NCBI GenBank assembly: GCA_026419335.1
Contig: JANZZP010000045.1
Coordinates: forward strand, 1-21,709
Reading direction: 5' to 3'
DNA length: 21,709 nucleotides
Source of the DNA: Elusimicrobiales bacterium
GTDB taxonomy: Bacteria > Elusimicrobiota > Elusimicrobia > Elusimicrobiales > UBA9959
In this document: piece by piece, positions 3,034-19,625 of the stretch
Position numbering within the stretch: the stretch's first letter is position 1
How the letters are laid out: each line of letters starts with the position of its first letter
The notes under the pieces: generated by a model
What the model was told of the DNA's origin: nothing
Databases searched by the model: none
What the model saw: only the letters and a program-made list of their open reading frames with translations
Translations under genes and position numbers: made by a program

Positions 3034-4584
3034 ATGAAGTTTTTTTTAATATATATAAGTTTTTTTATTTTTATTTTAAACATACATTCAAATTCAGAAA
3101 CCCATTTTTCAAATGAACTTCAATTATATAACAATGATATATCTGGAAATGGGAAGTTACAATCATCACTTACGGAAGGTTTTAGCTATATAAATATATT
3201 TAATTTATATGGAAATGGTGAAAAAGAAGTTTTTAATTACAGTTACAACATTGGTATAAAGATTACAGACGATTCCAAAAATGATATAAAAAATATTTCA
3301 TTAACAAATTTACAAGGAAACTTTATAAAAGACTATCACATATTTAATTTTGGAGACATCTTTGAAAACTTCTCACAATATACGCTCGCAACCTCTCTTA
3401 AAGGTATCTCTTACAAATTTCTCAAACAAAATTCCAAACTACCAAAGATATATGCAATTTTTGGAAACCCTTATCCAAGGTGGGATTCTTTTTGGAATGA
3501 ACCCAAAACAAAGGTTACAAAAAGGCAAGTTTATGGGCTTAAAATAAAAGAAAATATTGGAGATTTAGAAATTGGTGGAAATTACTTAAATTCAAAAGAT
3601 GTAGAGCTTGTAAATGAAAATCAAAAATTTAGAACATCTAATTATTCTGTTGACTTCAATTATATAATACTTGATGGATTAAATCTGAATGGTGAGTTTG
3701 CCAAATCAAATGGAGATGAAAAAATATCTAATAAATCTTTAAACGGTAAAGCATTAAGGTTAGAAGCAGTTGGTGATGCAGAACCTTCAAGAGTAAGTAT
3801 AGAATATGAAAACATAGAACCAGATTATACCTCACTTCTTGGATCAGCTATATCAGATAGAAGGAAAATAAAAGCAAAATGGAAATATAAATACTCTAAT
3901 CTAGTAAATTTAAATTCCTCTCTTCTTTACTATAGAGATAATCTCACAAATCAAAAAAAACAAACAACCTATACTTATAGACCTGAGATATCACTATCAA
4001 TTAAAAAAGTATTCAGTTCAAGGCCATTGTCTTATGCAAATATATCATACAAGTTTGATAGAAAATATGGACCCGCATCACAAAAAGATCATTATTTTAA
4101 TATAAATTATCAAGATAAATTCAAAGATATTGAAAATGACACTAATATTGGATATACTACATACAAAACAGATCCTAATAAAAGAAATTCATCAGAGATT
4201 AATTTCAATACTTCATTTTTAAAAAGAATTGATAAAAACGATTCAACAATAACACCATCACTAAATTTAGGAAGTTGGTATTCAAAGGATGAACTATCAA
4301 ATACAACAGATAAAATCTACGAATATTCTATGGGACTTATCTATGAGAAAATTCAAGCAAGTTTTAATATTGATTTCAAAATGGGGCAAAATTTTCTAAA
4401 AAAACAAAACTCACAAGATTCAGAAAAGACATTTGCTTTGATTAATTGTTATTATAAAACGAGGATGATTAATTATGACTCAACTATATTTTTAAAAATT
4501 GCCTATAATAATTATAATTTTTCCATTAATTCAAATGATTTTAGGGAAAAATCAATAACCTTCGGTGTTAATACTTCATTTTAA
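3034..4584 (+). CDS. Exported beta-barrel-like outer-membrane protein of unknown function
   Basis: 516 residues. The first 19 form a signal peptide (Lys at 2, then a run of Phe/Ile/Leu, ending near NIHS). After it come about 500 residues of alternating polar/hydrophobic beta-strand-like segments rich in Asn, Ser, Tyr and Lys, with no cytoplasmic domain and no long hydrophobic helix. The last strand ends ITFGVNTSF, with a C-terminal phenylalanine as in the barrel-insertion signal of outer-membrane proteins. A block near residues 145-175 (FGNPYPRWDSFW, then RQVYGLKI) looks conserved-domain-like, but I cannot name the family. AAGGAGG at 3021-3027 supports the start. The next gene begins 10 bases after the stop, so it is first in the envelope operon. 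It could be a porin-like channel or a surface anchor; the sequence does not choose between them. Confidence 0.75.
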   Translation: MKFFLIYISFFIFILNIHSNSETHFSNELQLYNNDISGNGKLQSSLTEGFSYINIFNLYGNGEKEVFNYSYNIGIKITDDSKNDIKNISLTNLQGNFIKDYHIFNFGDIFENFSQYTLATSLKGISYKFLKQNSKLPKIYAIFGNPYPRWDSFWNEPKTKVTKRQVYGLKIKENIGDLEIGGNYLNSKDVELVNENQKFRTSNYSVDFNYIILDGLNLNGEFAKSNGDEKISNKSLNGKALRLEAVGDAEPSRVSIEYENIEPDYTSLLGSAISDRRKIKAKWKYKYSNLVNLNSSLLYYRDNLTNQKKQTTYTYRPEISLSIKKVFSSRPLSYANISYKFDRKYGPASQKDHYFNINYQDKFKDIENDTNIGYTTYKTDPNKRNSSEINFNTSFLKRIDKNDSTITPSLNLGSWYSKDELSNTTDKIYEYSMGLIYEKIQASFNIDFKMGQNFLKKQNSQDSEKTFALINCYYKTRMINYDSTIFLKIAYNNYNFSINSNDFREKSITFGVNTSF

Positions 4585-4594
4585 GGGAGGAACA

Positions 4595-5827
4595 ATGAAA
4601 AAAACAATAATATTGATAACAATGTTATTAGTAACATATTCATCAGCCTATTCAAAATGGTGGATTTTTGGAAAATCAAAAGATGAAGTTATTATAAAAT
4701 ATATGCTTATCAATGATATTTCACAAGACGATGCGGCAGGAAAAATAACACTCTTTTATGAAAACATAAAAAATTTAAAAATATATGTGAAAGGGAAAGC
4801 ATATCCTGGAAAAAAATCCACAATAGGTCTTGTCAGATATACAATAGATAACAAACAATCTTGGAATGAAGCAAAATTTAATGAAAATGGAGATTTCGAG
4901 TTTGACTTTAACATAGAAAAAGATAAAAAATATGTTTTATGCGTTGAGATAACAAATACCTTGGGTAAAACCAATAAAGTAGATGAAAGCTGTAAAGAGA
5001 TTATAATATCTAAAGAGAGCATTAATTTAAATATAAAAAGCACTTTAGATGAACTTTTCAAAGCATATTCGGAAAAAAATATAAATAAGTTTATGAAATT
5101 AGTATCTGAAGATTTTGTAGGTGATAAAGATTTATTAGAACTTGCTTTAAAAAAGGATTTTAATACATTAGATAATATAAGCATTAGCTATACAATAAAT
5201 AATATTGCTTTAGGCTCTAAAGGAATTGCTGTTTCAATAACATATTCAAGAAGTTTTATTTCAAAAAAAAGCGGTTCTATTATACAAGATAGAGGAATGA
5301 CGGAAATGGTATTCAAAAAAGAAGCTAACAACATATTGCTATACAGTATGAAAAAACCACTACTTTTTGGATTATCGGACACAGATAATCTTGCCTCAGG
5401 AACAACTGCCGGGCAAACTGAAAGTATAATAATAGATGATATTGGAGAGGTAACCAGTGGAACTCAAATAATAACAATTTATAATTGTAACTCACTTGCA
5501 GTTTACAATTTTTCAAGTGGTAATTATATATGCGATATGGGAATGCCAAATGGTGATATATGGTTTTACAGCTGGGCAGATGCAATAGGATATTCTATGC
5601 CAAATGAGCATAAAGAAATAAATAAACCTTTATCCTTAATAACTCCCACTGAAGCAAAAAACAACACAGGATTTTCAAGCAATGCCTCTGTAAATCCTGC
5701 ATCGTTAGGAAAATCATATATATTTAAAATTTCAAATGGGTATTGGGGAATAGAACTTTTAGAAATGCCGTATCAGACTTATGGAGGAATGCAATTTAAA
5801 ATAAAATTTAAAGTTAAAAAATTTTGA
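4595..5827 (+). CDS. Exported protein with Ig-like and NTF2-like domains, function unknown
   Basis: 410 residues when started at the ATG at 4595, which has GGGAGG at 4585-4590; a longer reading from 4565 overlaps the previous gene and spoils the signal peptide. Residues 1-20 are a clear signal peptide (MKKTIILITMLL, AYS). Residues about 55-138 look like one Ig/fibronectin-type sandwich. Residues about 145-260 look NTF2/SnoaL-like: a helix with LDELFKAYSEKN, then NKFMKLVSEDF, then long strands. The last 140 residues are beta-rich, include YNFSSGNYICDMG and GKSYIFKI, and belong to no family I recognise. It lies between the beta-barrel and the coiled-coil protein. The NTF2-like part resembles the C-terminus of the next gene product, suggesting a shared partner or ligand. 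Periplasmic or surface location is inferred. Confidence 0.7.
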   Translation: MKKTIILITMLLVTYSSAYSKWWIFGKSKDEVIIKYMLINDISQDDAAGKITLFYENIKNLKIYVKGKAYPGKKSTIGLVRYTIDNKQSWNEAKFNENGDFEFDFNIEKDKKYVLCVEITNTLGKTNKVDESCKEIIISKESINLNIKSTLDELFKAYSEKNINKFMKLVSEDFVGDKDLLELALKKDFNTLDNISISYTINNIALGSKGIAVSITYSRSFISKKSGSIIQDRGMTEMVFKKEANNILLYSMKKPLLFGLSDTDNLASGTTAGQTESIIIDDIGEVTSGTQIITIYNCNSLAVYNFSSGNYICDMGMPNGDIWFYSWADAIGYSMPNEHKEINKPLSLITPTEAKNNTGFSSNASVNPASLGKSYIFKISNGYWGIELLEMPYQTYGGMQFKIKFKVKKF

Positions 5828-5861
5828 AAATATTTATCTATTAGTTTAATAAGGAGATTAT

Positions 5862-8477
5862 ATGATTTTGAGTATTATAATATTTTTTAATTCTATAATA
5901 TTATCACAATCTAAAACATATTTAGAAATAACAAATGAGCTAAGTTGGGAAATTTGGGGAACCGTGCAAACTAAAAAAGAATTACAAAAATATATTGAAG
6001 AACAAGTAGCAAATCTTGATACCCTTAATAAAATAAGACAAGCACAAATAAAACTTAGAGAGATGGCTCAACGACAAAATATTAAAACAGCAGTTAAAAT
6101 TGTAGATGTTGGGATAACTGCTGTAGGAATTATAACAGGAGGAACTGCTATTGCAGCTAAAGAAGGTGGGAAAGAAGCTCTTAAATGGTATTTTGCAAAA
6201 GAAGTAGGGAAAGAGGTAACAAAAGAAGCTATAGGTATACCAGGTTATTCTGACATAATTGGGGCTGGAGTATTTATATTTAACAAAGCAGATGAAAATA
6301 CAATAAGAGCTCAACTTTCAAAAGAATCTAGTCAAATATTAATAAAGGTTCAAGAAATACTAAAAAACTCAGAAACTTCCTACCAAGATAAGTCAAGAGA
6401 AATGTTTAATCTAACATTAGAAATGGAAGAAATAGTTGAAACTAAACAAAATCAAATTAAAGGTATTGCAAATCTTCTTGAAGAAAAAAACAAAAAAATT
6501 GAAGAACTAAGAAAAATAGCACAAATATTAAAGGATGAAGAAAAGAAAAAAGAATCAATGCGAGAAAAAAACATAAAAAATATAGAATACAAACCAGAAA
6601 TAGAGACACAAACAAACAAAGATATCGAAATAGAAATACAAACTCTGCCAAATGAAACCAAAGAAGAAAGTCGAAAAAAAATGCAAAAAGCAATAGATAA
6701 CTACATAAACTCACTCTCATTAAAAATAGTTAAAGATGATGACAAAGTATGTAAAGAATTAAGAAATATAAAAAATCAAGATATAAATTATGGTTATGAC
6801 GCAGAATCCTACTGGAAGGAATTTGAATATATGAAAAAAAATTTAGATAACTTAAATACATATTCATCTGCTGAAAGCATGGAAATTTCAGCCAAAAATA
6901 TTTATGAAAATCTTATAAAACAAAAAGATGCATATAAAAAATTCAAGGTTGAAATAAAAAATAATATAGAACCTTTAATAAAAAACATGTTAGAAAATAT
7001 TTCTTTATGGAATAAAATTTATTTAAAATACACATCAGCTGGATATAAAGTAGCAAAACCACCAGAAAATTCTGAATTTTTTGGATATAAAAATTGTTAT
7101 ATAAATGAGATGTCAAATATTGAGAGTTTTATGGCATCAACTAACGGATTAGAAAACTTGTTATCATCTATAGAAACATCAGCAAAAGGAAGAAAAGAGT
7201 TAATATACAAAATAGCTTCCGATTTTGGAATTAATCTTGTATCAAAAATAGAAGATTTTAAATCAAAAAAACCTATATATGAAAAGATAATAACAGAAAA
7301 ACTATCAAAACTTGACTATGATGCTGATAAAATTATCTCTCTTAGACAATCTATAATAAATGAGTTTAGTAGTATTGGGTCAAAAAATCTTAAAAATTTA
7401 AGCTCAAAAATATCAGAAGCATCTTTAATATATTCAGATATAGTTTCAAAATATTTAGAAATAAACCAAAAGTATAAAGAAATAAACACTTTAGCGTATG
7501 AAATAAATGAAATGAAATCAAATCCTCTAATCTCAGACATAAGTTATATTTCTTATCAATCTAAAAATCAATCACATAAATCTGCTATGTTACCTTTATA
7601 TAAAAAAATTCAAGATGATATATCCTTAAATATACCTTATTATGATTTTGAAGATAAATATGAAATATTTTCAAAAAACATTACCTCTGCTCAAACTGCT
7701 TTAAATTATTTAGAGTCTCAAAAAAATAAAATAATTTCAATTTATTCAAAAGCTATATCGGATTTTAAAACAGCATCTCAAAAAGATTTTTCCTCTTTTT
7801 ACGAGAGCACGTCAACTTTAAAAGAAGAGGTTTTAAAACTGGATTGTTTTTATGAAGATACAAAAAAACAAGAAGAAGAAATCACATCTGAAATTGTATC
7901 TAAAAAGTTTTTTGAAAATGTTGGAGAACAAGAGCCAACTCTTGCTAGAACTGGTTTCAACGATAAAGAAATATTAAATAAAAAAGAAGAATTTGAAAAA
8001 TTAAGAAGTGATTTTTGGTCATCAGATAAAGGGAAAGAAATAAAAAAATTATTATCATTAAATAATAACATTTCAAATGATTTGCAAACAATAGATAAAA
8101 TAAAAAATAATTATATCAACAAGTTATATAATGATTTAAAAAATGGATATGAAACTAAAAATATTTATAAAATAATTTCCCTCATAGATCCTTCTTGGCA
8201 ATCTCCAGACGGAGACACAATATCACAACTTCAAGAACACTTAACAAACATATTTAAAGTTTTTAATGAAATTAAATTTAATATAACGAATTTGCACATT
8301 ATTCCAAACAAAGATGGTAGCTTTAGAGTAAATTATAATTTGGAAATTATATCAAAAATATATTCTAAAAATATTAAAAGGATTGAGAATTCATTTGTTT
8401 CAGAAATGATAATTATAGAAAATGGTAAAGCAAGAATAGTCAAAACAGAAGAAGGAAATTATTGGATGATAAAATAA
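5862..8477 (+). CDS. Large exported coiled-coil protein with C-terminal NTF2-like domain
   Basis: 871 residues of no recognised family. AAGGAG at 5851-5856 supports the ATG. A short hydrophobic N-terminus (MILSIIIFFNSIILS), unusual in lacking a basic residue, probably serves as signal peptide. Residues about 76-98 and 127-140 are Gly/Ile/Ala-rich and hydrophobic (VGITAVGIITGGTAIAA; IIGAGVFIF), like a membrane-interacting hairpin. Residues about 145-260 and much of 310-745 are highly charged Lys/Glu-rich helix with strong coiled-coil character. Residues about 749-871 look NTF2-like (YNDLKNGYETKNIYKIISLIDPSW, split as one helix and turn) and end in GNYWMIK. The stop is 25 bases before the giant protease gene. 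A structural or tether role at the envelope is an inference; coiled-coil composition alone can mimic unrelated families. Confidence 0.68.
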   Translation: MILSIIIFFNSIILSQSKTYLEITNELSWEIWGTVQTKKELQKYIEEQVANLDTLNKIRQAQIKLREMAQRQNIKTAVKIVDVGITAVGIITGGTAIAAKEGGKEALKWYFAKEVGKEVTKEAIGIPGYSDIIGAGVFIFNKADENTIRAQLSKESSQILIKVQEILKNSETSYQDKSREMFNLTLEMEEIVETKQNQIKGIANLLEEKNKKIEELRKIAQILKDEEKKKESMREKNIKNIEYKPEIETQTNKDIEIEIQTLPNETKEESRKKMQKAIDNYINSLSLKIVKDDDKVCKELRNIKNQDINYGYDAESYWKEFEYMKKNLDNLNTYSSAESMEISAKNIYENLIKQKDAYKKFKVEIKNNIEPLIKNMLENISLWNKIYLKYTSAGYKVAKPPENSEFFGYKNCYINEMSNIESFMASTNGLENLLSSIETSAKGRKELIYKIASDFGINLVSKIEDFKSKKPIYEKIITEKLSKLDYDADKIISLRQSIINEFSSIGSKNLKNLSSKISEASLIYSDIVSKYLEINQKYKEINTLAYEINEMKSNPLISDISYISYQSKNQSHKSAMLPLYKKIQDDISLNIPYYDFEDKYEIFSKNITSAQTALNYLESQKNKIISIYSKAISDFKTASQKDFSSFYESTSTLKEEVLKLDCFYEDTKKQEEEITSEIVSKKFFENVGEQEPTLARTGFNDKEILNKKEEFEKLRSDFWSSDKGKEIKKLLSLNNNISNDLQTIDKIKNNYINKLYNDLKNGYETKNIYKIISLIDPSWQSPDGDTISQLQEHLTNIFKVFNEIKFNITNLHIIPNKDGSFRVNYNLEIISKIYSKNIKRIENSFVSEMIIIENGKARIVKTEEGNYWMIK

Positions 8478-8502: not shown

Positions 8503-11500
8503 ATGAACAAATATAATAGGAAACTATATTTAATAATCTTGTTCATATTTCTATTTCCTACTTATTTAATTTCCAAAAGCAAATCTATTAAACTATATTC
8601 AAAAACACACGGAAGAGAAATAGAAGTTGCAGAAAATGAAATAATTGTGAAGTTCAGGGAAAATGCAAATGTCGAAAAAATAAATAATTTAATCATAAAA
8701 TCACAAAAGAAAATTCAAAAAAGTTTTAAAAAAAACATTAAAAGAATAAAATTTAGTGATAATGTCGATATACTAAAGATAATAGAACTTTATAAAAATC
8801 AAAGAGATGTGATTTATGCTGAACCTAATTATGTAGCTCAAAAATTTTCTTTTATTCCAAATGATCCATTATATAATGAACAGTGGGGACTTAATAAAAT
8901 TGAAGCAGATAAATCATGGGATATTATAAATCCAAAAAGAAAAGCAATAGTTGCATTAGTTGATAGCGGTGTTGACTTTTCCAATTTAGAACTCTCAAGA
9001 AGTCTAATTGATGGATATGATTTTGTAAATGATGATAATTTACCAGAAGATGATAATGGTCATGGCACTCATTGTGCTGGTATAATTGCTGCAGAAATAG
9101 ATAATGGAATTGGTATTGCTGGAGTTCTTAATTCAGTAAGTATAATGCCTTTAAAAGTTCTTGATAAAAATGGAGTTGGATTTTATTCAGACATCGCTGA
9201 AGCAATAATATATGCAGCAGACCAAGGAGCCAATGTTATTAACCTAAGTTTGGGAGGTATGGAACAATCACATTTTTTACAAGAAGCTATAGATTATGCA
9301 TATGAGAAAGGATGCATAATAATCGCTGCAGCAGGAAATCTAGGTAATTCAACTCCAATTTATCCAGCAGCTCTTCAAAATGTGATAGCAGTAGGAGCAA
9401 CAGATGAAAACGATTTTAGATGGTATATGTCTTCTTTTGGCAATTATCTTGATATAGTTGCACCTGGAGTTAATATATTAAGCACCTATTTAGGAAACAC
9501 ATACAAAAAAGCAACAGGCACATCAGTAGCAGCAGCATTTGTATCTGCTATATCAGCTTTTATAATTTCAAATTCAACCGATATAAAAAATTATGAAATT
9601 GAAAATATAATTTTAAACACAGCAGACGATCTCGGAAATTATGGAAAAGACGAAGAATATGGATATGGGCGAATTAATATGCTAAAAGCAATAAAAAACA
9701 CACCAAATTTACAACATGATCTAAGTATAACAAAAATAACGGTAAGTAGTACAAATTTTTCAGACAAGGATATAAATATATACATCACACTAATGAACCA
9801 AGGAAAAAATGAAGAGAAAAATGTAGAAGTAAAAACAATAATAAATGAAAAAGAAACTTTCAGTGAAACAGTTAACAAAATTAAATCTGATGAAAAAATT
9901 AATATAAATATAAAATTATCTCAAGATATATCCTCTTTAGAAAGGTTAATTATTAAATCTGAAGTTTTGCCTGTTGAAGGAGAAATAGATATAGAAGATA
10001 ATAAAAAATCAATTTTATTCAGAATAAATTATGACTCAAACACAAAACTTGCCACACTACATGAAGTAGATGTTCATTCCTATATAATAGAAGAAGCTTT
10101 AAAATTATGGCCTAATAACACTTCAAATGAATTATATCTTTATAAAAATGAACTACACAGAGGAGCTGGAAACTACTCTGGAAGTTATACATATTCCGAA
10201 GATGGAAATTCTGATTATTATGGGAATCTATACATTTGTAGTATATCTGTATCAGAACATTTTTGGGATCCGTATAATCAAGATTATGTAGCATGGTGGA
10301 ATCTATGTTCACCACCATACTCACCAAGCACAGCAAGAACAAGAGCTTTATATATTTGGAACAATTATTCAATTCCAAACTATTCTACTCAAAAAAATAA
10401 AGCATATTATTATTTGGGAAGAGTCATACATCTTTTACAAGATATGAGTGTTCCAGCTCATGTTGTATGGGATCAACACACACCAATAGATAAAGATACT
10501 TATGAAAGCATATTTCTACCATCTAACTATTATAATTATAAAGCAACTGGAAGCCCTATAATAAAATCTGATATAAATAGTTATTTTGAATCTATGGCAA
10601 AGACTGCTAGAAAATATCCTTCTGATGATTATGATGGTTATTCTGACTCCGGTATTTTTTGGTATAACAACAATGGAAACCTAAGTACAACTAATGGAAA
10701 TAACGCTTCTTTAAATAACACAGCACTTCAAACAATAGCTTCAGATCTGATGATATCAGTTATACAACATGTCGCAGGAGCTTTAAAATTATTTGCTGAA
10801 ACAGTAGACAATACTCCTCCATCATCGCCAGCAAATCTTGACGATGGAGTTTCAGGTTGGAGTAGAACCAATAATTTCTCCTTTTCCTGGTCTGCATCAA
10901 CTGACAACCTTAGTGGAGTTAAAGGATATTATTACTCATTAACCGATTCAACTCCAGATAATGATGACTTCTTCACGAAAGATACCTCTACAACTATTAT
11001 CAATATACCAGATGGAATCTGGAATTTTTATGTATCAGCAGTAGATAATAGCATATCTCAAAATATAAGTCAGCCAAGTTATCATACTTTTATGATCGAC
11101 ACAACATCACCTACAATAATAAATAATCAAACTGGAGATGATGTTTGGCAAAACTCTAATAATAGAATTTATAATATTGATTTTGAAGATTTGGTTTCAG
11201 AATTAAATAAATTTCAAATAAAAATTACAACGGGACCAAATCAAAGCGGAAGAGAAATTATCCCCTGGACTGATATACTAACAAATATAAACTCACAATC
11301 ATACACTAATAACTGGCAAATTCCGGATTCAATTTTTAATCTATTATCAAATGGAACATCTTATATAAGCATCCGAGCTTACGATAATGCAGGAAATTAT
11401 TCAGAATTATCAGACGCGTTTTATATAAAAAAAGACACAATTCCTCCAAATATAATAAACACAACAGTTCAAAGTGGTGCTAAAGATAATATATGGCAAA

Positions 11501-13953
11501 ATTTTGATAACCAGCCAGTATTTAACTGGAATGCGTTAGATGATGGATCAGGTGTTTTTGGACATTATATTTATTTTGGAACAGATCCTAATGGTATTTC
11601 TTTCAACTACATTGTTTCAAATTCCTTTTCTTCTAATCTATTATCAGACGGTACTTACTATTTAAGAATACAATCAAAAGATAATGCTTCAAATTTAACA
11701 CCATGGATTACAATTTTTACCTTTAAATATGAATCTACAAAACCTACTACAACAATCAATTTAAATGGAACAATGGGAATTAATGATTGGTATATATCTG
11801 ACGTTATTATAACTCTCGCGGCATCGGATACAAATGGTTCTGGTATAAAAGAAACCTATTATAAAATTAATGGAGGGGAAACTCAAAATTATACATCACC
11901 ATTTACAATTAGTTCACAAGGAATTTTTACAATAGAATATTGGAGTATAGACAATGCTGGAAATGAAGAAGGTCATAAATACATAAATCTGAAGATAGAT
12001 AAAACTAATCCAACGTGTTATATAAAAGATTTACCAAACTATATAAAATTAACTTCATTTACGATTGAATGGAATGGATTTGACGGTATTTCAGGTATTG
12101 ATGAAAACAGTTTTGATATACAATACAAAATAAACTCTCAGCCATGGATAGATTGGTTTACATTAACAAATACTACCTATTCAGTTTATGGTCCTGTCGA
12201 ACCAATACCTGTAACTGAAGGAAATACATATTCTTTTAGATGTCGTGTAAAAGACAAAGCAGGAAATATCTCAGAATATAGTAATAATAACTATTCAATA
12301 ATTGTTGATACATCTCCACCTAATATCACAAGCATACTATCTACTACTCATCCTGAAAATGTTTGGAAAAACATATCCGATATAGTTATAAATTATTCAG
12401 CAAATGATTCAATTTCTGGTATTGAGAGATATGGTTATCAAATAAGCAATAGTTCCTTTCAATTAATTAACAACTTAATATATACATATAATAACTTATT
12501 AGAATTGAATAATATGTCAGATGGAATATGGTACTTTTATTTGCTTGCAGTTGATAAAGCTGGAAATTACAGCAACATAGCCACATACGGTCCCATTAAA
12601 ATAGACACCACCTCTCCACAAGCAACAGTAACATTATCAAAACATATCATAAAACAGGAACCATTAATAATCAATATAATTGCAAATGAGGATATATCAG
12701 AAATATCCTCTTCAATAACACAGAATGGTTCAATAAATATCCCATTATCGTTTGAAAGTTTGGATGGTATAAATTGGTCAACTAAATATATTCCTATTAC
12801 AAATTATGATGGAACAGCTATCTTTAATGCCACAGTAAAAGATGTAGCAGGAAATTCTATTTTTATATCAACAAATTTTATAGTTGATACAACTTCACCA
12901 ACTGCCGTAATTACAATGGATCATATTCCACCTTTTAAAACAGGTGAAATTAAAATAAATTTAACAATAAATGATTTAACAGACATTTTACAAAAACCTT
13001 TTCTTAAAATCTTGCTTCCTAACAATGATTTAATAACTTTAAATCTTATAGGTTTTAATAAAACATGGTCATCAAAATTTTACATAGAATCAACAACACC
13101 ACAAGGAGTTGCCTATTTTATTTTTTCGGCAACAGATACAGCTAATAATAATGGAATAGAAATTATTTCCGGTGATAGCTTTACAATAGATACGACTATA
13201 AATAATACAGAAGGAGGAAGTTCTTCAAACTCTGATGGCACATCGGTATATCTACCTCCTTATTCTACATTAGAACCAGTAAATATAATTATTACTGATA
13301 TCTTAAATACTACACCTCCAATACCAAAAGCAAATGATAAACTAGATATTTGGATAAAACCAATAAATATATATAAAAAATTTACAGCAATTGGTGAATA
13401 TTCATCTTCAAATATAAAATATTTCCAAAAAGATATCACTATCTCTATTCCATACTTAGATGAAAATCAAGATGGATATGTTGATAACACAAATATAAAA
13501 GAGAAAACATTAAAAATGTTTCATTTAAATGAATTAACGGAGAAATGGGAAGAACTTATAACATCCCAAGTAATTGAAACTGAAAACAAAGTAATAGCAA
13601 AAACAAATACTTTTTCAATATACGCTTTATTTTCAATTTCACCTTATAACAACAACACAACTAATATAATCGCTTTTCCAAACCCTTGTTATATAAAAAA
13701 AGATGGATATGTACGCATAACAAATCTCCCACAAACATCAAATAGTTTAAAAATTTTCATCTATACTATCGCAGGAGAATTGGTAAGAATTCTTAATGAT
13801 TCCAATGAGATAAAGAATCAATCTGGAATCATTACAGCATATTGGGACGGATATACTGAAAATGGAAAAAAAGCAGCAAGTGGAGTTTATATTTATGTTG
13901 TTAAAGATAATAGCGAAATAAAAAAACGAGAAAAAATTGTAATTTTTTGGTAG
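8503..13953 (+). CDS. Giant secreted S8 subtilase fused to zinc phospholipase C-like, Ig-like and FlgD/T9SS-like modules
   Basis: 1816 residues. Signal peptide 1-24. Propeptide about 40-112 (AENEIIVKFRENA, VIYAEPNY). Subtilisin-like protease about 120-400 with the full triad: Asp154 (LVDSGVD), His187 (GHGTHCAG), Ser341 (GTSVAAA, instead of the usual GTSMAAP), and oxyanion Asn279 (AAAGN). CARDB-like domain about 405-510. Zinc phospholipase C-like domain about 518-765 with His525, His586 (EHFWDP), His643-x3-Asp647-x5-His653 (HLLQDMSVPAH) and Cys579/Cys602. Eight Ig-like modules about 769-1563, each opening with DTTSPT- or DNTPP-like linkers, the fourth like an OmpL47-type repeat. A beta domain about 1575-1720. 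Then a FlgD-like tail from FPNPCY (1725) to the end (GELVRIL, YWDGYTENGKKAASGVYIYV). No clear ribosome site precedes the ATG, but the signal peptide fixes the start. Substrates are unknown; secretion is well supported. Confidence 0.9.
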   Translation: MNKYNRKLYLIILFIFLFPTYLISKSKSIKLYSKTHGREIEVAENEIIVKFRENANVEKINNLIIKSQKKIQKSFKKNIKRIKFSDNVDILKIIELYKNQRDVIYAEPNYVAQKFSFIPNDPLYNEQWGLNKIEADKSWDIINPKRKAIVALVDSGVDFSNLELSRSLIDGYDFVNDDNLPEDDNGHGTHCAGIIAAEIDNGIGIAGVLNSVSIMPLKVLDKNGVGFYSDIAEAIIYAADQGANVINLSLGGMEQSHFLQEAIDYAYEKGCIIIAAAGNLGNSTPIYPAALQNVIAVGATDENDFRWYMSSFGNYLDIVAPGVNILSTYLGNTYKKATGTSVAAAFVSAISAFIISNSTDIKNYEIENIILNTADDLGNYGKDEEYGYGRINMLKAIKNTPNLQHDLSITKITVSSTNFSDKDINIYITLMNQGKNEEKNVEVKTIINEKETFSETVNKIKSDEKININIKLSQDISSLERLIIKSEVLPVEGEIDIEDNKKSILFRINYDSNTKLATLHEVDVHSYIIEEALKLWPNNTSNELYLYKNELHRGAGNYSGSYTYSEDGNSDYYGNLYICSISVSEHFWDPYNQDYVAWWNLCSPPYSPSTARTRALYIWNNYSIPNYSTQKNKAYYYLGRVIHLLQDMSVPAHVVWDQHTPIDKDTYESIFLPSNYYNYKATGSPIIKSDINSYFESMAKTARKYPSDDYDGYSDSGIFWYNNNGNLSTTNGNNASLNNTALQTIASDLMISVIQHVAGALKLFAETVDNTPPSSPANLDDGVSGWSRTNNFSFSWSASTDNLSGVKGYYYSLTDSTPDNDDFFTKDTSTTIINIPDGIWNFYVSAVDNSISQNISQPSYHTFMIDTTSPTIINNQTGDDVWQNSNNRIYNIDFEDLVSELNKFQIKITTGPNQSGREIIPWTDILTNINSQSYTNNWQIPDSIFNLLSNGTSYISIRAYDNAGNYSELSDAFYIKKDTIPPNIINTTVQSGAKDNIWQNFDNQPVFNWNALDDGSGVFGHYIYFGTDPNGISFNYIVSNSFSSNLLSDGTYYLRIQSKDNASNLTPWITIFTFKYESTKPTTTINLNGTMGINDWYISDVIITLAASDTNGSGIKETYYKINGGETQNYTSPFTISSQGIFTIEYWSIDNAGNEEGHKYINLKIDKTNPTCYIKDLPNYIKLTSFTIEWNGFDGISGIDENSFDIQYKINSQPWIDWFTLTNTTYSVYGPVEPIPVTEGNTYSFRCRVKDKAGNISEYSNNNYSIIVDTSPPNITSILSTTHPENVWKNISDIVINYSANDSISGIERYGYQISNSSFQLINNLIYTYNNLLELNNMSDGIWYFYLLAVDKAGNYSNIATYGPIKIDTTSPQATVTLSKHIIKQEPLIINIIANEDISEISSSITQNGSINIPLSFESLDGINWSTKYIPITNYDGTAIFNATVKDVAGNSIFISTNFIVDTTSPTAVITMDHIPPFKTGEIKINLTINDLTDILQKPFLKILLPNNDLITLNLIGFNKTWSSKFYIESTTPQGVAYFIFSATDTANNNGIEIISGDSFTIDTTINNTEGGSSSNSDGTSVYLPPYSTLEPVNIIITDILNTTPPIPKANDKLDIWIKPINIYKKFTAIGEYSSSNIKYFQKDITISIPYLDENQDGYVDNTNIKEKTLKMFHLNELTEKWEELITSQVIETENKVIAKTNTFSIYALFSISPYNNNTTNIIAFPNPCYIKKDGYVRITNLPQTSNSLKIFIYTIAGELVRILNDSNEIKNQSGIITAYWDGYTENGKKAASGVYIYVVKDNSEIKKREKIVIFW

Positions 13954-13976
13954 ATAGATGAATTTATTAAAAATGA

Positions 13977-14827
13977 TTAATTCTACAAACAAACACATAC
14001 TATAAAACATCTGCCACTTCATTTTTAAAAATAACATCAGATGTAAGATCTGCTGCTATGACGGATGCATTTTCTGCTGTTTGTAATGATATAAATAGTA
14101 TAGATTTTAATCCCGCTGGTCTAATACAAATAAAAACAATCAAGCTTCATTTTCCCATGTTGAATGGTTTGAAAGATTCTTTTGCGTTTATAACAGCTTA
14201 TCAAAAAATTGTATTAGGTGAAGCTATACATTATTTTCAATCGGAGAATTTTCATCTAATTCTTTTTCCCTTAATCTAACATTAAGTCATAAAATTAAAA
14301 ACCAACTATATACTGGTATTAATTAAAGCTATAAGAGAAGAAATTTACAAAGAAAAAGTACACTATATGCAACAGATAAGGATTAATTTATCCTTAATAT
14401 TACAAAATATAGGAAATAAAATTAAATTATATGAAAAATTATTGACTTCCCTCTGTTATGAAAATTGGAGCATATTACAAATTTTTATCAAAAATACATC
14501 TTTTATTAGATTATTCTAAATATTTTAATGACACAAAAATCATAGCAATTGGAAATGAATATGAAAATAAATAAGATTTCAATTATAAGAGCTGGTTATA
14601 AAATCAAAAAAATATTTATTACATCATCAGAAATATCAGGTGGAATAGGAATTAAAATTAATAATTTAAATGTAGATTATTCAATTAGTAATTTAGAAAA
14701 TTTAGGAATGATTCATAGGATTTCATTACTAATCAATTCTAAAAATTCAACTAAAAATCAAATTAGGACTCAAAGTTCTAAACTAACTACCCAAAAGTCT
14801 CTTAAAAAATTTATAAAAATTCTATAG
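13977..14827 (+). pseudogene. Frameshifted PorV/UPF0164-family outer-membrane protein gene
   Basis: No intact frame spans this stretch, but successive frames read as one PorV/UPF0164-type barrel. 13977-14242: SATSFLKI, RSAAMTDAFSAVCNDINS, then DFNPAGL, the family's N-terminal signature. A shift near 14242 gives 14243-14323 (GEFSSNSFSLNLTLSHKIKN, LYTGIN). A shift and stop near 14322 lead to 14322-14448 (IKAIREEIYKEK, LSLILQNIGNKIKLYEK). A shift near 14449 leads to PSVMKIGAYYKFLSK and LLLDYSKYFND to the stop at 14572. A last shift near 14567 leads to ISIIRAGYKIK, SGGIGIKINNLNVDYSIS, and a stop at 14825. That is at least four frameshifts; the segment around 14355-14375 is probably also shortened. 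No signal peptide survives. In type IX secretion PorV receives cargo tails; other members of the family are unrelated to that role. The fragments at 14058 and 14549 should not be called separate genes. Sequencing error is unlikely to explain so many breaks beside intact neighbours. Confidence 0.85.
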
Positions 14828-14838
14828 ACTTTAAATAG

Positions 14839-14862
14839 AATAACTCGAAGTTATTGGGAGGG
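14839..14862 (+). promoter_or_regulatory. Inverted repeat abutting the deiminase ribosome binding site
   Basis: AATAACT-CGA-AGTTATT (14839-14855) is a perfect 7-base inverted repeat with a 3-base loop. It touches the ribosome site GGGAGGG (14856-14862), which lies 3 bases before the ATG at 14866. The stem has one G-C pair, so a stable RNA hairpin is doubtful; a DNA operator is as likely. The Shine-Dalgarno part is firm and sets the start of the deiminase gene, while a role for the repeat is speculative. Confidence 0.4.
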
Positions 14863-14865
14863 AAA

Positions 14866-16065
14866 ATGAGAAAGGTATTTTTTATTTTGACTCTTATTCA
14901 ACTCACTGTATTCAATATTAACGCAAGCGAAAACAATTTAAATAAAGATTTTATACCTCCAACAAAGCAAAACATAAAAGATTCTACATATGAAATAACA
15001 ATTCCAAATCCTGCTGATTTATATCCATCATATCAAAATAATAACTATGGAGATAAAAAAGGTCCATCAGAAGCTCAAAAACAACTCATCAAATTAAAAA
15101 ATAAATCTATATTAAAAAATAATAATATAGACATAAAATTTTCAAATCAACCAAATATCAAATATAGACCATATGCTGATTATGAAAAAACAGGATATTT
15201 AATTTTTACATCTGAATTTAGATTTAACTCAAAAGAAGCTAAAAAAATTTTAGCGAAAAACATACCGCAAGACGCTAAGTTAATATTAATAATAAACCCT
15301 TATAATCAAAAAGAGACAGATGAAGCACTATCAACTCTTACCACAGTAATACCAAGAAATAGGATTATTTTAGCAAGATTTACGGAATCATCTAAAGCAT
15401 TTTGGGCAAGGGACGCAATGCCAATACCAGTTTTTTCAATTTTAGATAATTCATTTACAGTTATAGATGCAAAATACTATCATGAATTTAATCAAGATCA
15501 ACAAGTAGCATCAATGTTTGGAGCAAAACTTGAAAAGCATGAATATTATTTTGAAGGTGGAAATTTTATGGCAAATAAAAATGGAGATTGTCTAATAGTA
15601 AACAATGATTATCATAGAGAAATCCCAGATTCAATATTTTCAGTATATTATGGTTGCAAGAAGATTATTAAACTTCCTTTTATAGAAGGGATTGGGCATG
15701 TTGATGAGCATGCTAGATTTGTAAACGACACTACAATTCTCACAGACCTTATACAATATAAAACAATTCTTGAAAAAGAAGGATTTACAGTAATTATGCT
15801 TCCAAAACCACAAGGAGCGTATGAAACATATGTGAATTCTGTAATAATGGATGGAAAAGCTATTGTTCCAATTTTTGGAAGTAGTACTGATTCTTATGCT
15901 TTGTCAGTATATGAATCAGTAGGATTTAAAGCTGAAGGAGCTCCTTCAAAAGATCTTTCAAACAAAGGAGAAGGATCCGTGCATTGTATAACAATGACAT
16001 ATCCACCAGTTCCTTTAAAAGAATTAGCAAAAGCGCTAAATATTGAAATTTTAGATAGTATATAA
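14866..16065 (+). CDS. Secreted agmatine/peptidyl-arginine deiminase-family protein
   Basis: 399 residues from the ATG at 14866 (GGGAGGG just upstream); a longer reading from the TTG at 14854 would place that site inside the gene. Residues 1-20 form a signal peptide (MRKVFFILTLIQLTVF, NAS), so unlike ordinary agmatine deiminases it is exported. The guanidine-modifying fold follows: FWARDAMP with Asp183, FEGGNF, GHVDEH with His278 and Asp280, and the nucleophile Cys374 in GSVHCITM, all in PAD_porph order. The family hydrolyses a guanidino group to a ureido group and ammonia; the Porphyromonas member citrullinates protein C-terminal arginines. Whether this one acts on agmatine, free arginine or peptides cannot be read from sequence. 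It has no FlgD-like tail. Its gene follows the broken PorV-like gene. Confidence 0.85.
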   Translation: MRKVFFILTLIQLTVFNINASENNLNKDFIPPTKQNIKDSTYEITIPNPADLYPSYQNNNYGDKKGPSEAQKQLIKLKNKSILKNNNIDIKFSNQPNIKYRPYADYEKTGYLIFTSEFRFNSKEAKKILAKNIPQDAKLILIINPYNQKETDEALSTLTTVIPRNRIILARFTESSKAFWARDAMPIPVFSILDNSFTVIDAKYYHEFNQDQQVASMFGAKLEKHEYYFEGGNFMANKNGDCLIVNNDYHREIPDSIFSVYYGCKKIIKLPFIEGIGHVDEHARFVNDTTILTDLIQYKTILEKEGFTVIMLPKPQGAYETYVNSVIMDGKAIVPIFGSSTDSYALSVYESVGFKAEGAPSKDLSNKGEGSVHCITMTYPPVPLKELAKALNIEILDSI

Positions 16066-16592: not shown

Positions 16593-17798
16593 TTAAATAA
16601 AATTAAAAAGTTTCCTTCCAATTTCATCAATATCCATAAATCCTCTAAAATTTTCAGCTCCATTCCAATAAGAAAAAATACCAACATAACTTGCTTCATG
16701 TTCATTTGTAGACCACTTTATATTACAAAATACATTAAAAGGTTCAAGCAAACTTATGCGTTTGTTTTTTATATCATCAAAATCTCTAAATGATATAAAT
16801 ATTCCAAAATTGTTAAAATATTTCTGTTTAAACAAATCATAATCTTCCACTTTTTCAGTTTCTTTACTGAAAACAAAAGCAGAAGATTTTGCATTTTTTA
16901 TTGGTTCTATATTTAATACCTCATTTGCATCTCTGCCTAAAGAAAGCCCACCATTTGAATGATCTGATAACATTACAAACAAACTATCTCTATTTTTTGA
17001 AACATAGTTAAAGATAACTTTCATAACCTCTTTTAATTCTTTCATTTCATAAGCAAGACAAACTATGTCATTATCGTGTTCGCAATGATCTATTCTGCCA
17101 GATTCTACTATCATCAAAAAACCTTTTTTATTTTTAGAAAGAAATCTCAAAGAAAAATCAACTAAATAAGATAACGATGGTTCAGAATCCTTTCTATCAA
17201 TCTCATAACTCATATGAGAATCTGAAAAAATACCAATAATTTTATTGACATTTATATCAATATCTTCTTTTTTTCTTACTATTTCATATCCATTTTTAAA
17301 AAGTTCTTCTTCTACTAAATTAATATATTTCCACCCACCACCTATAAAAAGATCAAAATTAGATTTTGGAATAAAATGAGCAATTTCATTTTCCATCTCT
17401 CTGTCAATATGATTTGCATAAAATACTGCAGGAGTAGCATGAGTAATTCGGGTATTTGTAATTATACCAACAGATTTTCTATTTTTCTTAGCTCTATAAG
17501 CTATACTTTCAAGTCTATTACCTTTCTCATCTATACAAATTCTTCCATTTAATGTTTTTTTTCCACATGCTATAGCAGTACCAGCAGCTGCAGAATCAGT
17601 AATATAATACTTAGAGTTAACTGGGTACGGTTTTACAATACCAAAATCTGAAAAATTTTTGAATTCTTCCATATTCCATAAAAGATCACCAAAACTCATT
17701 GAATTTATGCCCATACCGTCTGCTATTAGAATTATAATATCTTTTGGTTTGGAAAATAAATCTGTGCAAAAAATAAATAGTATTAAAATATATCTCAT
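16593..17798 (-). CDS. Exported alkaline phosphatase (PhoA family)
   Basis: 401 residues with a short signal peptide (MRYILILFIFCTDLFS). Alkaline phosphatases are periplasmic or surface metalloenzymes that release phosphate from many monoesters. Seen: metal ligand Asp27 in ADGMG; nucleophile Ser69 in TDSAAAGTA; THATPA at 119-124; Glu232, Asp237 and His241 in VESGRIDHCEHDN; Asp279-His280 in LSDHSNGG, where many relatives have TADHETGG; and the last His in NEHEASYV, followed by GAENFRGFMD. The catalytic set is complete, so it is probably active. AAGGAGG lies just before the ATG. It is the last gene of the minus-strand run after the phospholipase-like gene and the 50-codon gene, which suggests joint use in phosphate recovery. 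No pho-box-like repeats were recognised. Confidence 0.92.
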   Translation of the reverse strand: MRYILILFIFCTDLFSKPKDIIILIADGMGINSMSFGDLLWNMEEFKNFSDFGIVKPYPVNSKYYITDSAAAGTAIACGKKTLNGRICIDEKGNRLESIAYRAKKNRKSVGIITNTRITHATPAVFYANHIDREMENEIAHFIPKSNFDLFIGGGWKYINLVEEELFKNGYEIVRKKEDIDINVNKIIGIFSDSHMSYEIDRKDSEPSLSYLVDFSLRFLSKNKKGFLMIVESGRIDHCEHDNDIVCLAYEMKELKEVMKVIFNYVSKNRDSLFVMLSDHSNGGLSLGRDANEVLNIEPIKNAKSSAFVFSKETEKVEDYDLFKQKYFNNFGIFISFRDFDDIKNKRISLLEPFNVFCNIKWSTNEHEASYVGIFSYWNGAENFRGFMDIDEIGRKLFNFI

Positions 17799-17810
17799 TA
17801 AACCTCCTTT

Positions 17811-17963
17811 TTAAATATCACTAAAATAATAATAAAAGTTTAAATTAGAAAAATTTTTAAACAATTTAAATTCAGATAAAAATCTTCTCTTTTTGTATAA
17901 TTTAATATAATTCTTTGAATTAGTTTTAAGCAATAAAACTATTTTAAACTGATCATTTTTCAT
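17811..17963 (-). CDS. Small basic 50-residue protein, unknown
   Basis: A 50-codon frame fills what would otherwise be a 160-base gap between the phospholipase-like and alkaline phosphatase genes. Its ATG overlaps the upstream TGA as ATGA (17960-17963), and a good ribosome site, AAGGAG (plus-strand 17972-17977), sits 8 bases before it inside the upstream gene. Its TAA ends 12 bases before the phosphatase ATG, just ahead of that gene's AAGGAGG. The peptide starts MKNDQFKIVLLLK and ends NFYYYFSDI. It has 9 Lys and 2 Arg against 3 acidic residues and is rich in Phe, Asn and Tyr, with no signal peptide or known motif. The overlap and site spacing argue for real translation; chance is possible because such A+T-rich DNA reads open easily. 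Confidence 0.55.
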   Translation of the reverse strand: MKNDQFKIVLLLKTNSKNYIKLYKKRRFLSEFKLFKNFSNLNFYYYFSDI

Positions 17964-18799
17964 GTTTCAAACTCCTTATTAACATCATTATAAAAAAACT
18001 CAATAAAAGAAAAAGTATAAGATATAGCTAACTTTATCAAGTTTTTACTTATAAAATCTATACTTTCCTTATTCAAGGGATAATTCAAACCATCTTTATA
18101 ATAATCAATCCTTCCTTTATTGTTGTAATAAAAATTACCATCTTTGTGATAACCATCTTCAAAATCATTAGGGAATCTTTTTGTTTCAAGAGAAAGATTT
18201 ATAAAATAATCATCAAAGTTATCAAACTTATATTTTTTTATACCATCTAAATATTCATCTTTTACTACAAGCTCTTTATGAAATTTTTCATAATTATCGT
18301 CCAAGGGCCAAAAAGGATGAGGAGTATAATGAACATGAGCAGGAACGGATAAATCAGTAAGTATATGCAAAACTCTACCGAGATAATAATAAGATTTTCT
18401 TTTATCAATTTTATAATATTTAACAACAAATTTATTATAAATATATCTTGCTCTATTTAAAGCATTTGATTTGCCATAAGGTGGGTTACATCTATTCCAA
18501 AAAGATATATAGTCTGGATTGTAAGGATCATAAAAATGTTCAACAGAAGATACAGGTTTACAAGTATATAATTCACCAAAGAAATCATTAACACTATCCT
18601 CAGAGTAATCTTCTCCATTATAAATTCCAGCACCCATAATTATAAAATTTTTATAAAGATCAATCTCTTTCTTAATACTTTCATCAATAAAATTAAATGA
18701 CTTTAAAATCAAATCTGCATGAGCCTTGAGAGAAAAACGAGTTTGAGAATATAAACATACATTCAAAAATACTGTAGTAAATAGTATCATAACTTTCAT
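17960..18799 (-). CDS. Exported zinc-dependent phospholipase C-like protein
   Basis: 279 residues; signal peptide about 1-18 (MKVMILFTTVFLNVCLYS). Phospholipases C of this all-helical fold bind three zinc ions and cleave phospholipid headgroups; S1/P1 nucleases share the fold. Likely ligands by spacing to the Bacillus cereus enzyme: His27 (LKAHADL), Asp64, His88 (VEHFYDP), His145-x3-Asp149-x5-His155 (HILTDLSVPAH), and Glu171 in DDNYEKF. The family His four residues before that Glu is Asp167 here, by my alignment. The N-terminal Trp that supplies zinc ligands in B. cereus is not evident. Cys80 and Cys104 probably form a disulfide. The same domain is embedded in the giant protease at 8503. No clear ribosome site precedes the ATG. 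It overlaps the 50-codon gene by 4 bases and leads to the alkaline phosphatase. Activity is inferred; the exact substrate is unknown. Confidence 0.82.
   Translation of the reverse strand: MKVMILFTTVFLNVCLYSQTRFSLKAHADLILKSFNFIDESIKKEIDLYKNFIIMGAGIYNGEDYSEDSVNDFFGELYTCKPVSSVEHFYDPYNPDYISFWNRCNPPYGKSNALNRARYIYNKFVVKYYKIDKRKSYYYLGRVLHILTDLSVPAHVHYTPHPFWPLDDNYEKFHKELVVKDEYLDGIKKYKFDNFDDYFINLSLETKRFPNDFEDGYHKDGNFYYNNKGRIDYYKDGLNYPLNKESIDFISKNLIKLAISYTFSFIEFFYNDVNKEFET
17972..17977 (-). promoter_or_regulatory. Internal ribosome binding site for the 50-codon gene
   Basis: Minus-strand AAGGAG near the 3' end of the phospholipase-like coding region, 8 bases upstream of the ATG at 17963. Position and match to the anti-Shine-Dalgarno are as good as for the annotated genes here, and it has no other gene to serve. 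It is the main evidence that the 50-codon frame is translated. Confidence 0.6.
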
Positions 18800-18893
18800 A
18801 ACTACATTTTGGTAAACTAATGTAAAGATAAATAAAAATAAAGGTAAAAAATTCGTAAAATTTTTAACTAAATTCTAAAGTAACAAAAAATTT

Positions 18894-18899
18894 TATAAT
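18894..18899 (+). promoter_or_regulatory. -10 element placed for a leaderless transcript
   Basis: A perfect TATAAT ends 6 bases before the ATG at 18906, the same geometry as at coaD, and again there is no Shine-Dalgarno sequence. It lies in the 106-base divergent gap to the phospholipase-like gene. The -35 position is not convincing. Confidence 0.35.
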
Positions 18900-18905
18900 A
18901 AATAA

Positions 18906-19625
18906 ATGTATCTGTTGTTAATTTTTTTTTGTTTAGCTTATGGAAATCAATTAAACATAGAGTTAGGTACTGGATTAATATATTCATCCTCAATATATAA
19001 ATCAAAACAGGATAGAAAAATTTTTATTCCATTTATCAAAGCATCATATTCAAAGTTGTCCTTATACGGAACTGAAGTTTCATACGAAATTTTCAATACC
19101 AATAAAACATTATTTACAACATCTTTAAAATGGGAACCCAGTGGTTTTGATCCTGATGATGGATGGTATTTAAAAGGAATGAAAAAAAGAAAAGATGAAA
19201 TAAATATAAGAGGAATTATCTCTTACAGAATACCATTAATAAGGTTATCATTTGAAAACTCATATAATTTAACAAGTTCAAAAAAATATTATTCATTTTC
19301 ATTTTCGATATCATCAAGAATACCTATAAATAAAACAACAAACGTTATTCCTTCAATAAAAGTAGAGTATGAAAATAAGAATAAAGCAAACTACAAATAT
19401 GGTGTTTTTTACTATGAGGAAACACAGGAAAGAAAACAATATTCTCCTAATGATACAATAATAAAATCATTAAATCTAAACTTAACAAAAAGATATGAAA
19501 AATTTGCAGTTATAATATTAAACTCTTTTAAGATTTTGTCAAAAGATGTAGAAAAAAGTCCCATAATATCACGAAAATTACAATTCACTACTATAATTGG
19601 GATTATTCTAAAAGAATTAAAATAA
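18906..19625 (+). CDS. Divergent MipA/OmpV-like outer-membrane protein
   Basis: 239 residues, typical for MipA/OmpV barrels (about 230-280). A short signal peptide (MYLLLIFFCLAYG) is followed by a run of amphipathic beta strands. MipA-like features: GTGLIYSSSIYKSKQDRKI then IPFIKASY near the N-terminus, LKGMKKRKDEINIRGIIS in the middle, and NYKYGVFYYEETQERKQYSP, which matches the family's YYGV-x-EA-x-Y-x-P segment near the C-terminus. It ends GIILKELK rather than in an aromatic residue, so barrel insertion would not use the usual terminal Phe. MipA of Escherichia coli scaffolds murein hydrolase and synthase; other members are porin-like and the role here is unknown. It converges on gatB, leaving 6 bases between the stops. 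Confidence 0.62.
   Translation: MYLLLIFFCLAYGNQLNIELGTGLIYSSSIYKSKQDRKIFIPFIKASYSKLSLYGTEVSYEIFNTNKTLFTTSLKWEPSGFDPDDGWYLKGMKKRKDEINIRGIISYRIPLIRLSFENSYNLTSSKKYYSFSFSISSRIPINKTTNVIPSIKVEYENKNKANYKYGVFYYEETQERKQYSPNDTIIKSLNLNLTKRYEKFAVIILNSFKILSKDVEKSPIISRKLQFTTIIGIILKELK

Follow-up and report, generated by a model that had tools for sequence, protein, structure and literature searches.

A subtilase fused to a phospholipase C-like domain in an Elusimicrobiales bacterium, with a possible built-in activation site

Results

Anatomy of the protein

We analysed a 21,709-nucleotide stretch of DNA from an Elusimicrobiales bacterium (GenBank assembly GCA_026419335.1, contig JANZZP010000045.1, positions 1 to 21,709; hereafter the window). 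It holds an open reading frame (ORF) for a secreted-type protein in which a peptidase S8 (subtilase) domain stands upstream of a zinc phospholipase C (PLC)-like domain. An earlier note, made from the sequence alone, had described this protein and proposed that the second enzyme would need a free N-terminus, perhaps cut by the protease on the same chain. The parts of the protein are as follows.

8503..13953, + strand: ORF of 1816 residues with an ATG start, comprising S8 protease, CARDB module, PLC-like domain, eight immunoglobulin-like (Ig-like) modules and FlgD-like tail
8503..8574, + strand: signal peptide, residues ~1-24 (hydrophobic stretch, judged by eye)
8629..8829, + strand: fervidolysin-type prodomain, residues 43-109 (Pfam, E 6.3e-8)
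8938..9669, + strand: peptidase S8 domain, residues 146-389 (Pfam, E 2.5e-55)
8962, 9061, 9523 and 9337, + strand: S8 triad D154, H187, S341 and oxyanion N279, respectively (residue check)
9715..9921, + strand: CARDB module, residues 405-473 (Pfam, E 3.4e-5)
10057..10062, + strand: L519-H520, proposed activation site (structural alignments and flanking residues of relatives)
10060..10815, + strand: zinc PLC-like domain, residues 520-771 (profile, AlphaFold model and structural matches)
10075..10506, + strand: putative metal ligands H525, D567, H586, H643, D647, H653, H659 and E668 (alignment)
10807..13197, + strand: eight Ig-like modules, residues 769-1565 (Pfam, NCBIfam and motif counts)
13711..13911, + strand: FlgD_ig-like C-terminal module, residues 1737-1803 (Pfam, 27.1 bits against a cut-off of 27 bits)

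The coordinates and length of the ORF, the S8 triad with N279, the eight Ig-like modules and the FlgD-like tail were all as the earlier note had claimed, the tail only barely reaching its curated cut-off. In residues 769-1565, eight linker motifs agreed with eight D-x-A-G-N-like motifs; a ninth match to the linker pattern, at residue 1530, was discarded, as it falls within an Ig-like module. Big_13 was also among the Pfam matches of the protein. With both enzyme domains complete and a signal-peptide-like start, the chain almost certainly carries the two enzyme domains on one secreted-type polypeptide that the note had described.

The first domain is a member of peptidase family S8, with its triad and oxyanion Asn lying in S8 motifs and a subtilisin fold preceded by a prodomain, and it is predicted to be proteolytic. 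A longer structure model matched pro-Tk-subtilisin from residue 44, and the structural match list for the S8-CARDB-PLC model was filled by subtilisins. The protein differs from the fervidolysin, thermitase and Tk-type subtilases of this family by its PLC-like domain and its long Ig tail.

The second domain has a phospholipase C fold

The PLC-like domain scored 16.6 against the 26.8-bit gathering cut-off of PF00882 and was therefore overlooked by Pfam annotation. No Pfam family reached its cut-off in residues 505-772, no NCBIfam family covering these residues was listed for the whole protein at E 0.01, and PHROGs gave nothing at E 0.01. However, a 14-sequence profile of the domain matched Bacillus cereus PLC (9e-12) and C. 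absonum alpha-toxin (2.3e-5), and its AlphaFold model matched 17 PDB chains at E<=0.001, all of them PLCs or alpha-toxins. The resemblance in sequence and fold is not due to chance. The earlier note had made its second enzyme depend on this fold, and on that point the matches uphold it; it had also drawn attention to the metal spacing H643-x3-D647-x5-H653, which is present.

We aligned 112 domains to the profile, the window's own included. H586, H643, D647, H653 and H659 were invariant (112/112), H525 was His in all 105 non-gap rows, D567 was Asp in all 108, and E668 was Glu in 110 of the 112. D665 was Asp in 101 and Glu in eight. A first alignment had offered D571 as the equivalent of D55 in B. 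cereus PLC, and it was replaced by D567. For the B. cereus enzyme we take the ligands to be H14, D55, H69, H118, D122, H128, H142 and E146. By alignment, the eight conserved residues would be the counterparts of these side-chain ligands, the profile match to B. cereus PLC covering part of the chain, and the fold match suggests that they cluster in space.

The domain is very likely a metal-dependent phosphodiesterase. Known zinc-dependent PLCs (B. cereus PC-PLC, Listeria PC-PLC and the N-domain of clostridial alpha-toxin; PF00882) begin with the domain, whereas here it is internal, fused to a protease and below the Pfam cut-off, with a His at the place of Trp1 in the alpha-toxin alignments. Because an internal His520 stands where a PC-PLC has its mature N-terminal Trp ligand, we regard the domain as a sister family within the PLC/P1 superfamily and not as a PC-PLC.

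The fusion recurs and arose at least twice

The earlier note had called for a search for other proteins of this architecture, and the fusion proved not to be unique. A genome scan for relatives of the domain, from which the best 80 of 89 loci were taken, and a set of 36 proteins contained one ORF with both domains, S8 first, in 7/80 loci and 5/36 proteins, making 12 distinct ORFs. The proteins were P0001 and P0003 (81% identical in the domain), P0007 (subsurface metagenome), P0008 (Thermodesulfobacteriota) and P0011. By title, the loci came from Deltaproteobacteria (L003), Pacearchaeota (L005), Proteobacteria (L008), Phycisphaerae (L012), Desulfobulbaceae (L019), Rhodocyclaceae (L020) and Nitrospirota (L026), all metagenome bins in which binning errors are possible. 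We found no description of an S8/subtilisin-phospholipase C fusion among the open-licence papers searched.

All eight ligands and the triad residues D, H and S were kept in 12/12 fusions, and the oxyanion Asn in 11/12, with a Lys aligned at this position in the archaeal L005. Between the end of the S8 match and the H525 equivalent lay 125-135 residues in nine of the 12 and 95, 145 and 252 in the others. Genome G004 resembles the window in having both an S8 fusion (L003) and a PLC-like protein with the domain near its start (L128).

On a tree of the PLC domains (112 rows, quick method), the S8 label required nine changes, seven of them forced by starred branches. Excluded from it were two duplicates, second copies from the same genome, short loci for which longer ones were taken, and rows below the coverage and score limits. 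P0001 and P0003 belonged to a clade of ten rows that also contains stand-alone forms, several from Elusimicrobia. On a tree of the S8 domains (62 rows, with L169 counted as unfused, near a contig edge and possibly a truncated fusion), 11 of the 12 fused domains grouped together (93) and the archaeal L005 lay elsewhere. A single origin of all 12 fusions was rejected on this quick tree (P = 0.0037, approximately unbiased test). In all seven fusion-holding genomes searched, the fused S8 domain was the best match to that of the window; some unfused proteases of the Elusimicrobia phylum were equally identical to it (45-49%). The grouping on the S8 tree and the rejection of one clade thus point to one main S8 stock and one or more separate fusions, and to partners being lost or swapped.

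A second kind of protease may also have been joined to the same domain. Six relatives (P0005, P0006, P0019, L009, L023 and L028) have an HExxHxxGxxH metalloprotease motif upstream of it, and in P0006, the row of these six that was scanned, metzincin families were matched in Pfam.

The PLC-like family, scoring below the Pfam cut-off, is rare but spread over several bacterial phyla, and it also occurs in archaeal bins. Domain matches at E<=1e-10 were found in 14/198, 10/245, 9/297, 3/294 and 12/252 genomes from the phyla of G001, G010, G004, G007 and G005, respectively; these samples include genomes picked for having the domain, so that the true share is slightly lower. They yielded no further S8 fusion within flanks of ~1.5 kb, some long frames having been fetched in full.

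H520 lies at the expected N-terminus of the second enzyme

Relatives of the domain use their N-terminal residue to bind metal. According to a report on Listeria PC-PLC (PMC10576769), the enzyme is made as an inactive proenzyme, and a propeptide of 26 residues is taken off by the protease Mpl; metal 3 is bound by the main chain of W1, one residue added ahead of W1 abolishes activity, W1F is active, and W1A, W1E and W1K have lower activity. S1 nuclease begins at Trp21, whose main chain coordinates zinc (PMC5201275). The note's point that an internal PLC-like domain has no free N-terminal ligand is well taken.

In the structural alignments to 1ca1, 2wxt, 2wxu, 1ak0 and 4cxo, H520 (model residue 21) comes first and is paired with residue 1; in that to S1 nuclease 5fb9 it is paired with residue 21, where the mature enzyme starts. 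Further rows begin one residue later in an unchanged register. These alignments give first and last aligned residues only, and so a register and not a distance.

We then compared relatives that have only a leader before the domain (66 rows with the domain near the ORF start and the His no later than residue 70, of which 64-65 could be used at each offset). A cut five residues before the H525 equivalent satisfied the (-3,-1) signal-peptidase rule in 31/65 rows, against 0-16 at 17 other offsets, and a His, Tyr, Phe or Trp stood at -5 in 43/65. Both together were seen in 28/65 rows, against 0-7 at other offsets and 13 at offset 0. Further genome searches added 25 rows, 15 with the His aligned, which were assessed by eye; a small residue followed by His, Tyr or Phe lay 5-10 residues before the His in 11/15, split between -5 and -9. 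L200, one of the remaining four, is a repeat of L006; L198 and L199 are near copies. The cut suggested in the note lies near residue 518. Close to this, at the L519-H520 bond, is where the N-terminus falls in several structural alignments and in the leader-only relatives, whereas the alignment to B. cereus PLC does not place H520 on Trp1.

For all rows we defined an anchor as the first His, Tyr, Phe or Trp in the order -5 to -9, -4, -10, a rule that allows chance finds; 95/105 rows had one. Where the domain begins within 100 residues, the residue preceding the anchor was Ala in 32 of 76 anchored rows. In the S8 fusions it was Leu or Phe in 8/12, and Leu, Phe or Tyr was found there in 8/12 fusions against 3/83 others (P = 6e-7, Fisher test, not corrected for kinship). 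Four residues before the anchor the trend was the same (7/12 against 10/83). Leu, Phe and Tyr at such positions fit the preference of subtilisin. The separately derived archaeal fusion L005 also has Leu before its anchor. In P0008 two successive His make the anchor ambiguous, and counting from the first would give 9/12. This association of Leu or Phe with S8 fusion is suggestive only.

In the stand-alone P0002, P0013-P0015, L001 and L002, an Arg or Lys precedes an anchor Phe ([RK]-F-S-L-K-A-H), a few residues past the likely signal cleavage; perhaps there is a second trimming step. H520 as a universally conserved metal-binding His was rejected, as the position is also occupied by Tyr, Phe and, in one case, Trp, and 10/105 rows have no anchor.

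A number of observations weigh against a cut at L519-H520. In the closest structure, B. cereus PLC, the alignment begins at residue 518 against chain residue 4. The domain model has one helix over residues 512-533, its first part of low confidence, with a predicted local distance difference test score (pLDDT) below 50 at residues 500-514. In the longer model the same helix begins at 524, so that the local shape at H520 is unsure. The S8-CARDB-PLC model has a predicted template modelling score (pTM) of 0.58, which leaves the orientation of the domains unsure, and contacts between them were not used. The 10 rows without an anchor include three of the six with a metalloprotease motif, and Lys or Gln precedes the anchor in 3/12 fusions, P0008 being ambiguous. 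A tree-aware test of Leu or Phe was weak (seven independent pairs; typical pairing three for, none against and four ties; median P = 0.25). As 11 of the 12 fused S8 domains group together, the linker may have been inherited along with the protease. Finally, His or Tyr also stands at the anchor in longer-fronted relatives with no protease detected, nine of them with Glu before it, and so it may matter there as a side chain.

Genomic context

Two genes on the opposite strand of the window bear on the second domain.

17960..18799, - strand: stand-alone, secreted-looking PLC-like paralogue of 279 residues (95/257 positions identical, 37%)
16593..17798, - strand: alkaline phosphatase, downstream of the stand-alone PLC-like gene and on the same strand

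They lie in a block (16593-19625) in the order coaD, alkaline phosphatase, stand-alone PLC-like gene and mipA. Among the 80 loci checked, PLC-like and phosphatase genes were adjacent in L001 and L002, and in L002 the pair is moreover flanked by mipA and coaD in unchanged order. The relatives P0016 and P0018 carry Elusimicrobia names, which together with the shared gene order points to Elusimicrobiota as the probable origin of the window. A phosphodiesterase paired with a phosphatase would suit the scavenging of phosphate, whether from lipid or from nucleic acid.

Elsewhere, an S8 gene can be a neighbour of PLC-like genes, as at L213 and L217, both in genomes of the G005 phylum; at L213 three PLC-like frames come after the S8 gene, in the same orientation as it.

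Upstream of the fusion gene, 3034-8477 holds three consecutive ORFs of 516, 420 and 871 residues with hydrophobic starts, for which Pfam and NCBIfam gave nothing at E 0.01. Downstream, 13954-14853 comprises 900 bases without an ORF of >=100 residues and without an Rfam match, and 14854-16065 encodes a peptidylarginine/agmatine deiminase-like protein whose N-terminal leader is hydrophobic. Rfam gave nothing at gathering scores over the whole window, and plasmid records gave no match by megablast.

Discussion

We propose that the protein is a zymogen with a built-in activating protease that would cut at L519-H520, a reading to which we give somewhat less than an even chance. In the course of events that we infer, from metal binding, catalysis and cleavage to substrate and ecological role, the prodomain would fold the S8 protease, which would then free itself, as subtilases do. 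The CARDB module would join it to the metal phosphodiesterase of PLC/P1-nuclease type, with the Ig modules and the FlgD-like tail as a stalk or anchor. Because H520 occupies the place of the family's metal-binding N-terminal residue, the second enzyme would be a zymogen while the upstream part is attached. A cut by the S8 domain, in cis or in trans, would expose His1, with its alpha-amine and carbonyl making the third metal site complete. Once released, the enzyme would cleave phosphodiesters, most likely of phospholipids, so that protein and membrane debris could be degraded together for nutrients and phosphate.

A close relative of this scheme is Listeria PC-PLC with Mpl (PMC10576769). The shared idea is that a protease cut exposes a metal-binding N-terminus; the difference is that Mpl is a separate metalloprotease, whereas here the putative cut would be made by an S8 domain on the same chain. 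The closest published idea that we found (PMC3482391) lists a PLC/S1-P1-like domain with a processing protease, namely the Het-C toxin domain with a PVC metallopeptidase. It involves another protease and another delivery, and Het-C is there related to PLC only at borderline significance.

The leading alternative is that both enzymes are active in the intact chain, the H520 side chain binding the third metal in place of the N-terminal amine, with the fusion kept for joint degradation of protein and membrane. His or Tyr at the anchor where no protease is fused would fit this. So would the occurrence of S8 and PLC-like as separate genes (<=2 kb apart, same strand) in two of 11 further genomes of the G005 phylum, against an expectation of about 0.08 for neighbours within 3 kb, in a small sample counted after the pattern was noticed and assuming one PLC-like locus per genome. 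Both genomes have PLC-like proteins with a signal-peptidase-like site before Tyr (L201, L204 and L211), so that no protease would be needed there. However, the anchor is Tyr or Phe in many relatives, and these are poor replacements for an imidazole ligand. The anchor also coincides with a signal-peptidase-like site in leader-only forms. Further, an extra residue before W1 inactivates Listeria PC-PLC (PMC10576769). On balance, we consider activity of both enzymes in the intact chain rather doubtful.

It is unlikely that the second domain is an S1/P1-type nuclease. The superfamily fold is shared, and H520 is in register with the N-terminal residue of these enzymes. Their structural scores were lower (Z 12.8-14.7), and none of them was among the nine PDB sequences that the profile matched at E<=1. 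The substrate is probably phospholipid rather than nucleic acid. That the domain is a degenerate, non-catalytic binding module is highly improbable, for although the N-terminal Trp is absent and the Pfam score falls short of the cut-off, the eight side-chain ligands are kept in all 12 fusions and in nearly all 112 aligned domains.

Extended to the family, the proposal of a built-in activator would describe a class of self-activating metalloenzymes, widespread but rare, in which removal of the upstream part always leaves the same aromatic or His N-terminus to close a trinuclear site. Signal peptidase would be the remover in leader-only forms and the built-in S8 protease in the fusions, which would carry their own activator and would have been joined at least two times, in a bacterial group and in the protein from a Pacearchaeota bin. 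We hold this wider reading tentatively, as a possibility short of an even chance and behind the activation of the window's own protein.

If true, the two-gene activation of Listeria PC-PLC by Mpl would become a one-chain device, and a general rule would follow for a metal site dependent on the way in which its N-terminus is produced. Even if activation fails, the recurrent fusion of a protease with a PLC-like domain and the pairing of its paralogue with a phosphatase point to scavenging of biomass and phosphate in uncultured Elusimicrobiota.
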